64,000 nt of DNA from an uncultured bacterium (GTDB lineage: Bacteria > Chloroflexota > Anaerolineae > J036 > Brachytrichaceae): the NCBI GenBank assembly GCA_903921365.1, contig CAIXPS010000603.1:1-64000 (forward strand), given 5' to 3'. The translations under genes were made by a program, and so were the position numbers. Positions 7,737 to 28,176 of this stretch are shown one piece after another. The notes below the pieces were generated by a model that was not told the DNA's origin, did no database searches, and saw only the letters and a program-made list of their open reading frames with translations. Every line of letters begins with the position of its first letter. Position 1 is the first letter of the stretch.

Positions 7737-8762
7737 ATGCATTGGGAAAGACTTTCCGAAGACGTTTATATATTTACTAGCGACCGTTATGCGCAGGTAA
7801 CTGCAAGCTTGGTCGTCTCCGGCACGATTGGAGTTGTGATCGACACACTCCCGTTTCCGCAGGAGACAAGCCAGATTGCATTGTTTGCGCGCCGCCGTTG
7901 CCCGGATGGCGTGCGTTATGTTATTTATACGCAGCACCAGGCCGATCATACCTATGGGGCATTCCTGTTCCCCAGGGCAGAAATTATCTCGCACAGGCTC
8001 TGTCGCGACATTCTCATTGAGAGAGGCTTTAAGGCGCTCGAACTGGCCAAAAAACTCAATCGTGAACTGGAGTTAGTCCGGCTGCGCATTCCAAATCTGA
8101 CGTTCGAAAGTGGAACGTTCACACTGCGATTGCCCGGCAAGACGCTCGATATCTTTCCGACGCCCGGCCACACCCCGGATGCTGTATCTGTCATCCTTCA
8201 AGAGGAGAAGATCCTCTTTGCTGGCGACACGATTATGGCGATTCCAACGATTGGCGACGGCGATCTGGATCAGTTGCGCGCCTCGACCGAGGCGATTGCC
8301 GCTATACCGCTGGAAAGCATCGTCCAGGGCCATGGCGAGATCATCCTGCGCGGCGAGATTAAGGACAATATCAAGCGTAGCCTTACGTATCTGGATCACC
8401 TGAACACCAGGATACGCAAACTGGTCGATACCAACGGCACGCTTGAAGAGGCTCGCAAGATCACGCTGGAGTCGTGCGGGTTGCAGCGGGTGCTGCTGAA
8501 CGGCATGGTGACCCCCTTGCACACGGCGAATGTGACGGCGTTGTACAACCGCTTCATGGCGGAGCGCGGTTCCTCCAGGTTGCCACCTCTGATTCTCAAG
8601 GCGCCGGAATCCCCTGTCGAAGCAGAGGTTGTTGAGAAGGAAGCGCCCAAGCGGAGACGCGCCGCGGCCAAGAAAACGGCTGCGCGTAAGAAGCCCGCGG
8701 CTGCAAAGAAAAACGGGCAGACGAAAACCGCCGAAAAAGCGAGGGTGACGAAAAGGCGTTAG
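7737..8762 (+). CDS. MBL-fold hydrolase-like protein with altered metal motif and basic tail
   Basis: A metallo-beta-lactamase-fold protein of 341 residues. The glyoxalase-II/cyclase-like core is clear: PTPGHTPD with His145, FAGD with Asp164 and QGHGE with His199. The primary metal motif is not the canonical THxHxDH: residues 65-71 read TQHQADH, so both first zinc His positions are Gln while the Asp and last His remain. The last 45 residues are a Lys/Ala/Arg-rich, histone H1-like tail that may bind nucleic acid. It abuts the PTS-like permease gene with a 2-nt gap, so the two are probably co-expressed. The substrate is unknown. Confidence 0.82.
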   Translation: MHWERLSEDVYIFTSDRYAQVTASLVVSGTIGVVIDTLPFPQETSQIALFARRRCPDGVRYVIYTQHQADHTYGAFLFPRAEIISHRLCRDILIERGFKALELAKKLNRELELVRLRIPNLTFESGTFTLRLPGKTLDIFPTPGHTPDAVSVILQEEKILFAGDTIMAIPTIGDGDLDQLRASTEAIAAIPLESIVQGHGEIILRGEIKDNIKRSLTYLDHLNTRIRKLVDTNGTLEEARKITLESCGLQRVLLNGMVTPLHTANVTALYNRFMAERGSSRLPPLILKAPESPVEAEVVEKEAPKRRRAAAKKTAARKKPAAAKKNGQTKTAEKARVTKRR

Positions 8763-8764
8763 GC

Positions 8765-10399
8765 ATGAGCGTATTCCAGGCCGCCTTTATCGCGCTGTTC
8801 TACACGTTTGCGCGCTCCGCGTTTAACGCCGGACTAGGCGGCTACATCCTTTCCCAACCCCTGGTGGCGGGCACGATTGCCGGTCTGTTACTCGGCGACC
8901 CCATAGCAGGCGCAGCGCTTGGCGGCTTCATCAATCTGGGCACGCTGGCATTGAGCAACCTGCGACTGCGCGTTGGCCCGGATATCGCACTGATCGGCTA
9001 TGTTGGCGTGAGCGTGTTGTTGCTGGCAGGCGTGAAAGCCGACAGCCCGAATGTGGCGACGATCTTCGCTGCGCTGGCCGCGCTTGGGATTGTCATCAAC
9101 TTCATGCGCGGCGTGGTCAATAGCGTCCTGGCGCACTGGGCTGACTACTTTGCCGAGCGGGGCAACGCCAACACTGTCGCGTTTGTCAACATCGTCCCGA
9201 CACAGGCGTGGCTGTTTTTGATCACTTTCTTTCCGGCGTTTCTTATTCTGCGCATCGATGTCAAGACGCTGCTCGATATCACGGCCGCCATTCCTCACTG
9301 GGTGCAGAGTGCGTTGAACCTGAGCCAGTACCTGCTGGCTGCCATGGGCATCGCTCTCAGCCTGCGGCTGATCATGCATGGCAGCAGCATCGCTTACTTC
9401 ATTCTGGGCTGGCTGGGCGCACAACTCTTCGGCCTGGCGCCAGTGACGCTGCTCGGCGCGAGTGTGGCGATGATCCATGCTTTCCTGGCGCGTAAACGCA
9501 TGGAGTCAGTTCACGAGACGTTGATTACCGATCTTTTGCCATCCGATCAGTCCAGCGGCATGAACCCGGACGCGCCTCGCCTGACGAGCAATGATCTGCG
9601 CCTGTCGCTGTTGTTATGGGTGTTTTTCCATGACGCCGGGCTGAACTACGAGCGCGCCCAGAACATGGGATTCGCGACTGCTATGGCGCCGATCGCAAAG
9701 CGACTATATGCTGACGTGACTGAACGCGCGGCCTGTCTGCGCCGGCACCTGACAATGTTTGCGACCGAGTTTTCAGTCGGCGCGTTGCTGGTCGGGGCGA
9801 CCGCCGCGATGGAGGAGCGCCGCGCCGCCGGCGATGTCATCAGCGACGCGGAGTTTGTGGGCGCCAAGACCGGGTTGATGGCCGGACTGGGCGTGACGGG
9901 AGATGCGCTGGTTGTTGGCGCAATTACCGCGCTCGGTATCGCCGTCGGCGTTGGGCTGGCGCTCCAGCAGACGTTGCTCGGCCCATTTCTATTCATCGTG
10001 TTCGAGGCTGCGACGGTGCTCGGTATCGCCTGGGCCAGCTTTACCATCGGTTACCGCACCTTCCTGAATCTGGAGGCATGGGCGCGCGCGAATGACTGGC
10101 TGCGCGCCATGCTTTTCGGCGCAGTGCGGCTGGGCGCGTTTGCGCTGGGCGCGCTGGTCATCAGCTTCGTCCCGGTGCATCTGCCTGCGGGCGCTGTGAT
10201 CCAGATCGACTTGGCGCGCATTCCGCTGCAGGCGGCCTTGCTCGATAGCGTCATGCCGCGCATGGTCCCGCTCGCTATCACGATCGGGTTGTGGTGGCTG
10301 CTGCGGTATCGCAATACCAACCCGATGGTGTTGCTTGGCGCGATCATCCTGGTGTCCGTGGTTGCCTGCGGCCTGCTGCGCCTGATCGGCTGGCTGTAG
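8765..10399 (+). CDS. Fused PTS mannose-type IIC-IID permease
   Basis: An integral membrane protein of 544 residues that joins two normally separate subunits of the mannose/fructose/sorbose phosphotransferase family. Residues 1 to about 250 resemble IIC (PLVAGTIAGLLLGDPIAGA, GGFINLGTLAL). From about residue 273 the sequence is IID-like: LTSNDLRLSLLLW, NYERAQNMGFATAMAPI, RRHLTMF, GATAAMEE and LMAGLGVTGDALVVG. The usual IID motif GIGDS is GVTGD here. No IIA, IIB, HPr or EI gene lies in the window. It is flanked by the MBL-like gene (2-nt gap) and the DUF6062 gene (1-nt gap), suggesting a three-gene operon. Confidence 0.85.
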   Translation: MSVFQAAFIALFYTFARSAFNAGLGGYILSQPLVAGTIAGLLLGDPIAGAALGGFINLGTLALSNLRLRVGPDIALIGYVGVSVLLLAGVKADSPNVATIFAALAALGIVINFMRGVVNSVLAHWADYFAERGNANTVAFVNIVPTQAWLFLITFFPAFLILRIDVKTLLDITAAIPHWVQSALNLSQYLLAAMGIALSLRLIMHGSSIAYFILGWLGAQLFGLAPVTLLGASVAMIHAFLARKRMESVHETLITDLLPSDQSSGMNPDAPRLTSNDLRLSLLLWVFFHDAGLNYERAQNMGFATAMAPIAKRLYADVTERAACLRRHLTMFATEFSVGALLVGATAAMEERRAAGDVISDAEFVGAKTGLMAGLGVTGDALVVGAITALGIAVGVGLALQQTLLGPFLFIVFEAATVLGIAWASFTIGYRTFLNLEAWARANDWLRAMLFGAVRLGAFALGALVISFVPVHLPAGAVIQIDLARIPLQAALLDSVMPRMVPLAITIGLWWLLRYRNTNPMVLLGAIILVSVVACGLLRLIGWL

Positions 10400-10400
10400 G

Positions 10401-11147
10401 GTGTTTGATATTTTCCAGCGCCGTATGGATATCGCGATTCAGAAGTACAGCCGCACTTATTTCGACTTGATCGAAGCGTTCAAGCAGCCAGATTGCGCCG
10501 TATGCCGGTTGACAGACGCCGCCGTGTGCCAATACATCGACATTTTTATCTACGAGAACATCACGAATGTGGCGCGGCGCCAGGAGATTCGCGAGGCGCG
10601 ACTGTTCTGTTCGCTGCACACCACCAAATTCCTGAGCGGGTATGGGCGGTTGCTCAGCCTGGCGACGCTGGAGCAGGATGTGCTGAATGACGTGCTGCGC
10701 TCGACCAACCGCGTCATCAAGCACCCGCTGTCCCGGCCTGGCAAGATCGGCGCGCTGTTTCAAAACGCGGCGCGGGCCATCCGAGACGCGATCCGGCCTG
10801 CCCGCAACTGCACGTTGTGCGACTACGAGCGCAGCCAGGAGCGCGTCATGCTCGGCACGCTGATTCAGTTTATCGAGGAGCCGGACATACGCGAGGCATT
10901 TGAGGCTTCGAACGCGTTGTGTCTCCCGCATTACTACATGGGGCTGGGCATGCCAGGCCGGCATGAGCGCATCATCAAGGTGCAGCAGGCTGTACTGGCA
11001 AAGACCAAGGCCGACATCGATGAGTACGTGCACAAGCGCAACCCGTTGTATCACGATCAGGAGATGAACGAGGACGAGATTGAGTCTCCGACCCGCGCCG
11101 CCAAGCTGATATCGGGGCGCATCATCCACATGGACGGCCGCTGGTAA
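10401..11147 (+). CDS. DUF6062-like cysteine-rich protein
   Basis: A 248-residue soluble protein with two CxxC pairs (DCAVCRLT near residue 33; NCTLCDYE near residue 135), each followed by a CxLH-type segment (LFCSLHTTKF, ALCLPHYYMG). This repeated CxxC...CxxH pattern suggests two similar metal-binding halves. I match it to DUF6062, a Chloroflexota-rich family of unknown function. The frame opens with GTG at 10401, one nucleotide after the permease stop; an ATG at 10425 is an alternative start. It is likely translationally coupled to the permease. Confidence 0.75.
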   Translation: MFDIFQRRMDIAIQKYSRTYFDLIEAFKQPDCAVCRLTDAAVCQYIDIFIYENITNVARRQEIREARLFCSLHTTKFLSGYGRLLSLATLEQDVLNDVLRSTNRVIKHPLSRPGKIGALFQNAARAIRDAIRPARNCTLCDYERSQERVMLGTLIQFIEEPDIREAFEASNALCLPHYYMGLGMPGRHERIIKVQQAVLAKTKADIDEYVHKRNPLYHDQEMNEDEIESPTRAAKLISGRIIHMDGRW

Positions 11148-11207: not shown

Positions 11208-11356
11208 TTCGCAATGGTGGACGGCTTAAAAGCACTGAAACCATTGAGGCGATCATTGTCGTTATAGCATGGATACGGCATGCGCCTCTTTTTGCATTTA
11301 TTTGGCATGATAGCTGGGTGTACAGGCGTCGATCTTTGAAGGAGTGATTGTTGATT

Positions 11357-13495
<2,139 letters not shown>

Positions 13496-26826: not shown

Positions 26827-28176
26827 TCAGCCGTTAGATATATCCTTACCCAACGGTGATAGGGGTTGCGTATCAAATGACCTATTAGGCTTGTTATGTG
26901 TTTTCGCGCTCATAAGTGAATCGTTGCGGTCGCGGCCGACCATGAGTCCGAGCCAAGCCAATACGCTCAGCCAGGCTGGGAGCGAGAGTATACGCAGGAT
27001 TGTCCGCGCGTCGCCAAGGGGCTGGAGAACAAGCAAGGGCTGGTACATCTCGAAGTAGTAGGTTGCGATCAGGAATGGCAGGCAGGCCAACAGATACCAG
27101 CGCAGGCGATGGACGTGATCCAGCAGCAGAACAAGCGGGAGAAGCCAGAGCAGATACGTGACGCTAAAGCCGGCTGTGAAGGCAAAGAGAGCAAGGATGA
27201 TCAGGGTCATTCCCTGCAGCAGGGGACGGCGGAGAGCAAGCCACCATGCGACGAGGATGGCTGCGAGGGTGAGCCAGCGGCCGAATAAATAGGCAAGGAT
27301 GGCGGCGATGGCGAACCAGAGGCCGTAGGAGAAGTCGAGGAACCTCACGGCCAGCAGCAGGCCGGCCGAGTAGCCCCAATTGCCATACACGGAGCCGTAG
27401 CCGAGGGTGTTCGTGACCATGGCCATGAATGCACCGGGCCGCAGCGAAAGGTAGATGCACATCGCGGTGAGAGGAACGACACCGCAACTGAGCAGCAGGA
27501 GCAGCCGCTCCCGCCACCGCGGGATCGCCAGGAGCAGCACCGGCAGGAACAAGGCGGGCCAGGATTTGACAAGGATGCCGAGCCCGAGCGCGGCGCCTGC
27601 CAGAATGGGATTCTTCTGGCGATCGACGAGTCGCCATGCGATGAGTGATAGAAGCAGGGGCAGGCTGTCAAACTGGCCGCCATAGGCGACGACGAGCAGC
27701 GAGATGGGGTTGAGGGCGTAGACGAGAGCAGCCTGGTTTGCCCGGCCTTCGCCCCAGCGATCGAGCACAACTCGGTACACGAAGAATACGATCAGCGCAT
27801 CGGCGATGACCCCGGGGAGTTTCACCAGCACCACGAAGGGAATGTTGAGACTGAGTTCAGCCAGGCGGGAAAGAGCGAGCCAGTACATCCAGAATGGCAG
27901 GTAGGGATGCCGTATGCCGGCGACCGGATCGCCGTAGACGTCTCTACCAGACAGGAATGTATCGGCGACCAGCCGGTAGGAGTCGATATCGTACTTGGCG
28001 CCGAGTGGCAACAGCAGCGCCGGAAGAAGGCGAACGGACAACGCCAACACGACCAGCGCGATGGGTCCAAGCGACCACATGGGAACGTGAGACAGGAGTA
28101 CGGCCCCAAGGGCCAGTACTACGACGGCAAAGTAGATCAGCGCAAATGGAAGTTCAATATCGAGCACCCACGCCAC
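26827..28176 (-). CDS. Polytopic membrane glycosyltransferase (GT87/DUF2029-like)
   Basis: An integral membrane protein of 449 residues with about ten or more helices. An acidic loop (KYDIDSYRLVADTFLSGRDVYGD) after the second helix and HPYLPFWMYWLAL are typical of GT-C fold glycosyltransferases using polyprenyl-phosphate sugars (DUF2029/GT87). Other conserved points are ALNPISLLVVAYGGQFDSLPLL and KSWPALFLPVLLL. It probably adds mannose or another hexose to an envelope glycolipid. It is the only intact gene in the decayed 26.4-29 kb stretch. Confidence 0.8.
   Translation of the reverse strand: MAWVLDIELPFALIYFAVVVLALGAVLLSHVPMWSLGPIALVVLALSVRLLPALLLPLGAKYDIDSYRLVADTFLSGRDVYGDPVAGIRHPYLPFWMYWLALSRLAELSLNIPFVVLVKLPGVIADALIVFFVYRVVLDRWGEGRANQAALVYALNPISLLVVAYGGQFDSLPLLLSLIAWRLVDRQKNPILAGAALGLGILVKSWPALFLPVLLLAIPRWRERLLLLLSCGVVPLTAMCIYLSLRPGAFMAMVTNTLGYGSVYGNWGYSAGLLLAVRFLDFSYGLWFAIAAILAYLFGRWLTLAAILVAWWLALRRPLLQGMTLIILALFAFTAGFSVTYLLWLLPLVLLLDHVHRLRWYLLACLPFLIATYYFEMYQPLLVLQPLGDARTILRILSLPAWLSVLAWLGLMVGRDRNDSLMSAKTHNKPNRSFDTQPLSPLGKDISNG

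Follow-up and report, generated by a model that had tools for sequence, protein, structure and literature searches.

A mannose-type IIC-IID permease of uncultured Chloroflexota whose gene is paired with that of an MBL-fold protein and retained in genomes without detectable IIB, HPr and EI

The window, i.e. the whole 64-kb stretch of DNA that was analysed, encodes a fused IIC-IID permease of the mannose (Man) family of the PTS, which is probably a PTS-derived elevator that has become a PTS-independent carrier of a small solute and acts together with an MBL-like protein. Computationally, this reading is supported by the fusion, by a fixed gene pair, by purifying selection in genomes in which IIB, HPr and EI were not detected, and by the loss of otherwise invariant residues. 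PTS permeases are generally expected to require phosphoryl transfer. The mismatch that is usually reported is the opposite one, i.e. phosphotransfer proteins without a permease (PMC2405797).

The permease gene (8765..10399, forward strand) is a real coding frame in the open reading frame list of the window, which starts with ATG and specifies 544 aa; Pfam searches, an alignment with ManYZ, an AF2 model and Foldseek agree on its assignment. Residues 4-237 (8774..9475) correspond to Pfam EII-Sor/IIC (PF03609, 2.1e-34) and residues 273-535 (9581..10369) to Pfam EIID-AGA/IID (PF03613, 5.6e-55), both far above the curated cut-offs, which confirms the initial annotation in that IIC and IID are fused in one chain. 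The two halves are joined by a low-confidence linker lying between the Pfam domains (residues 238-272, 9476..9580, pLDDT < 50 at 250-264). The closest relatives with a solved structure are ManZ and ManY of Escherichia coli, which were also the top Foldseek matches (TMt 0.71 and 0.74, respectively) of the confident AF2 model (pLDDT 86.8, pTM 0.86), and the two-domain elevator fold of the ManYZ type is thus predicted to be intact. The permease resembles E. coli ManYZ (PDB 6K1H, 7DYR) in both Pfam domains, in the predicted fold and in a homology of nearly full length, but it is a single chain without a IIA or IIB partner gene, it differs in residues that are changed throughout its clade, and permeases of its type persist in genomes without HPr, EI and IIB.

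The fusion itself is not a novelty, since 32 of the 38 IIC genes above threshold in 199 genomes of the class are located in open frames of fused length (518-689 aa); an IIC match was present in 35 of these genomes. Outside the clade of the window protein, the fused IIC-IID genes adjoin IIB in nearly all testable cases, contigs that start at the IIC-IID gene being untestable for this adjacency. The exception is a second fused IIC-IID gene in a genome of another family (G002, locus L055, 6969-8712), which stands without IIB in the 13 kb that were read. The IIB-linked fusions of the host genome and of other Anaerolineae share the same domain arrangement and about 25-34% identity with the window protein, but they directly follow IIB (often IIA-IIB), keep the invariant residues and belong to a separate clade. 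The host family comprises uncultured hot-spring and mat Chloroflexota with Thermoflexales and Candidatus Roseilinea as named members, and 24 of its 28 genomes carry a fusion of the window type. In the tree, these fusions form a single clade with a support of 100/100 on a long stem (1.32), and the family's IIB-linked paralogue forms a clade of its own. No member of the window-type clade has IIB as a neighbor (0/24); it is the second paralogue that follows IIB.

We compared 23 window-type sequences with 25 IIB-linked sequences, including those of E. coli, in an alignment with 54 columns that are near-invariant in the IIB-linked group. Twenty-nine of these columns persist in 22 or more of the 23 window-type sequences, and eight persist in at most one, a count of clade-specific changes that the long stem branch may inflate and in which conservation is the only guide to residue loss. 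In the IIC half, Arg31 is replaced by Gln in all 23 sequences (Q31 in the window) and Gly67 is kept in none, being Arg in 22 (R67 in the window). In the IID half, Pro129 (E. coli IID numbering) is replaced by Ala or Ser in 23/23, and Asp120 is kept in 11 and lost in 12. The window protein is among those that keep this Asp (D380): the ManZ stretch AGVG-D120-P aligns to GVTG-D380-A, so that the Gly-Asp pair is retained and only the surrounding residues differ (P129 to A389, W/Q124 to V384). The change of a GIGDS motif to GVTGD, which had been proposed from the sequence, hence goes back to a misalignment. Within the window-type clade, conservation is weaker in the IID half than in the IIC half. 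Judged from the alignment, this pattern would look like an altered function rather than decay, with release from one constraint while function continues.

The MBL-fold gene (7737..8762, forward strand) is located directly upstream of the permease in all of the 24 family genomes with a window-type permease. In 23 of them the pair was read on a single contig, and in G207 it spans two contigs, of which C74 ends with the MBL gene and C35 starts with the permease gene; these two ends share about 140 identical bases and thus represent the same junction. Stop and start overlap by 4 bp in many genomes and are otherwise 2-6 bp apart, including the 2-bp gap in the window (8762 to 8765); the gap of 75 bp in G138 reflects a start call affected by a frameshift. 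The permease frame of this genome (L048, 3432-5062) is split into three pieces, due to either a sequencing error or a real inactivation. The pair is constant, and the genes flanking it vary between genera. In the window, the permease is followed after 1 bp (10399 to 10401) by a gene for a DUF6062 protein (10401..11147, forward strand, 248 aa, PF19538, 8e-15), and because of the tight spacing the three genes are likely to be co-transcribed. However, DUF6062 adjoins the pair only in the genera g1, g4 and g7, and we therefore rejected the trio as a unit: of the conserved trio suggested initially, the MBL-permease pair stands (24/24 genomes) and the DUF6062 gene does not. An FtsH-like AAA + M41 protein is encoded further downstream (11348-13495; 227.8 of 600 bits, far below the FtsH cut-off), and genera g1 and g4 have a gene of this kind close to the pair.

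The constant partner is a protein of 341 aa with a Pfam match to PF00753 (2.9e-18), and its AF2 model matches MBL structures. Its orthologue occurs once per genome in 28/28 family genomes, including those without the permease, and in 322 of 396 genomes of the class, where it is nearly always single-copy; a permease-specific gene was therefore rejected. Among the 15 readable loci outside the family, we saw no conserved neighbor beside the MBL gene, such a permease included. The metal motif of the window protein is altered to TQHQADH (residues 65-71, 7929..7949). All of the 27 family sequences surveyed, three of them from permease-less genomes, have T[Q/G/S]x[Q/E]xDH, and of the 15 sequences compared from outside the family 13 have THxHxDH and the other two TISHADH. 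Since the change is also found in the three sequences from permease-less genomes, the two-histidine loss is, on the sequences compared, a family trait and not due to the permease alone. Across the window's family, this single-copy MBL-fold gene (7737-8546 in the window, and its orthologues in the class) has lost two motif histidines. The Asp and His of the first motif as well as the GH, GDT and QGH motifs are kept, and the remaining metal ligands and the fold are present. These motifs and the fold are shared with the MBL-fold hydrolases 8D2Z (Burkholderia cenocepacia), chlorothalonil dehalogenase (6UXU), PqsE and CphA, from which the window protein differs in that both leading histidines of HxHxDH are replaced (by Q/G/S and Q/E), in a long basic tail and in the pairing of its gene with a permease.

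This C-terminal tail (residues 276-341, 8562..8759, net +14) is rich in Lys, Arg and Ala and predicted to be disordered (pLDDT < 50 at 281-341). Tails of about 60-140 residues with a net charge of +14 to +29 are present in 24/24 permease-linked proteins. The charge is -8 in G199 and G200, two permease-less members of the genus that also includes the permease-bearing G185 (+24), and +7 in the permease-less G206. Three permease-less genomes allow no more than a hint that the basic tail might be tied to the presence of the permease. The main rival to a carrier starts from the gene pairing: instead of being a transporter, the permease could anchor the MBL protein to the membrane or serve it as a sensor, an alternative that we consider rather unlikely. 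The invariable pairing with its gene overlaps, the basic tail in all permease genomes against the negative one in two permease-less genomes, the loss of conserved IID residues near the Gly-Asp pair and the weaker conservation of the IID half would all fit such a role. It would, however, leave unexplained why a complete two-domain elevator fold is predicted to be intact and why invariant glycines and charged residues are kept in both halves, which goes beyond the needs of an anchor.

As claimed initially, the window contains no gene for IIA, IIB, HPr or EI; genome-wide HMM searches placed all significant matches on other contigs of the host assembly (6.88 Mb, 603 contigs, 97% complete), and the one IIA-like match within the window, at 27379 (E = 1), falls below the threshold. 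On contig C348, a second fused IIC-IID gene directly follows IIB (PF03830), and contig C588 carries an orphan IIA. The C348 locus (L006, 3912-6707) consists of IIB, the fusion and a 252-aa protein without a Pfam match, a three-gene set conserved across genera g1 and g4. In the host genome, HPr and EI were detected solely as parts of an 838-aa DhaM (IIA-HPr-EI), which belongs to a DhaK-DhaL-DhaM locus on contig C193 (L007, 3039-7279). This agrees with the published rule that multiphosphoryl proteins with IIA-Man accompany DHA kinases (PMC2405797). The dihydroxyacetone kinase is a system separate from the permease, and the presence of DhaM does not imply sugar transport by a PTS. Because IIB, IIA and a DhaM-type IIA-HPr-EI are encoded elsewhere in the genome, their absence from 64 kb proves nothing, and we rejected any judgement on uncoupling from the window alone. 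Taken by themselves, these genes would count against uncoupling and would formally amount, for this genome, to the refutation named at the outset, a conclusion that is reversed by the comparison of the 28 family genomes.

In these genomes, IIB is restricted to genera g1 and g4 and to G206, where it always precedes the other paralogue, and HMM searches with positive controls did not find it in 16 of the 24 genomes carrying the window-type permease. HPr and EI are present in 16/28 genomes; searches that detected both families in control genomes did not find them in any of the nine g3 genomes, in G185 or in G156. Consequently, IIB, HPr and EI are all undetected in 11 genomes that keep the pair, and HPr and EI, which the host has in the form of DhaM, are absent from genomes with the same permease. 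This absence is a negative result drawn partly from draft genomes, but it is repeated in 11 genomes, of which one (G212) consists of just one 4,668,611-bp contig (4.67 Mb). An ordinary PTS permease that borrows the C348 IIB together with IIA and the HPr-EI of DhaM is improbable in view of these results. Indeed, all of these parts are encoded in the host genome and fused homologues elsewhere are IIB-linked, but borrowing is inapplicable to the 11 genomes as well as to five more without IIB, the window-type permease never adjoins IIB, and Arg31, Gly67, Pro129 and other residues that the IIB-linked paralogue keeps are lost in the window type. Occasional coupling is possible in the host's own genus, which has IIB, IIA, HPr and EI elsewhere, and g1 and g4 are the only genera in which a PTS role with a borrowed IIB would be possible.

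In comparisons of close pairs, the permease has dN/dS values of 0.08-0.24 and the MBL gene has values of 0.08-0.28; the PTS-less genus g3 accounts for values of 0.13-0.24 and 0.08-0.28, respectively. The permease is therefore under purifying selection, including in g3 with nine of the 11 PTS-less genomes. It is very unlikely that the permease is a remnant in decay after the loss of its PTS, an alternative to which the broken frame of G138 (maybe a sequencing error) and the fact that some relatives have lost the Gly-Asp motif could point. This selection in several genera largely refutes it, and open frames in 23/24 genomes and the confident fold model speak against it. The suggestion that the permease is uncoupled from the PTS gains support from the 11 PTS-less genomes that keep the pair and from the selection in g3, but not from the reasons originally given for it.

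We thus favor a fused IIC-IID permease of mannose-family PTS origin that would no longer be driven by PEP-dependent phosphorylation and may work as an uncoupled facilitator or secondary carrier, with transport itself, its direction and its energy source being part of the proposed model. The permease and the cytoplasmic MBL-fold protein are probably made from one message and probably act together in a putative functional or physical partnership; the MBL gene occupies the place that IIB holds in true PTS operons. More tentatively, the MBL-fold protein of this family might have replaced IIB as the partner of the permease in a two-gene system that would serve transport or sensing free of phosphoryl transfer, with the basic tail of the MBL-fold protein docking on the permease or the membrane.

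In the open-licence literature, we found no report of PTS-less Man permeases or of sugar uptake in Roseilinea. The parts belong to known families. Neither the pairing with an MBL-fold protein nor survival in the absence of EI, HPr and IIB seems to have been described in the literature searched. An annotation of these genes as "PTS mannose transporter" calls for caution in PTS-less genomes. A mannose-type IIC-IID that has outlived EI, HPr and IIB in a naturally occurring lineage would make the elevator residues that couple transport to IIB testable, and the MBL-permease pair may offer a way into the function of an MBL protein that is found throughout the class.
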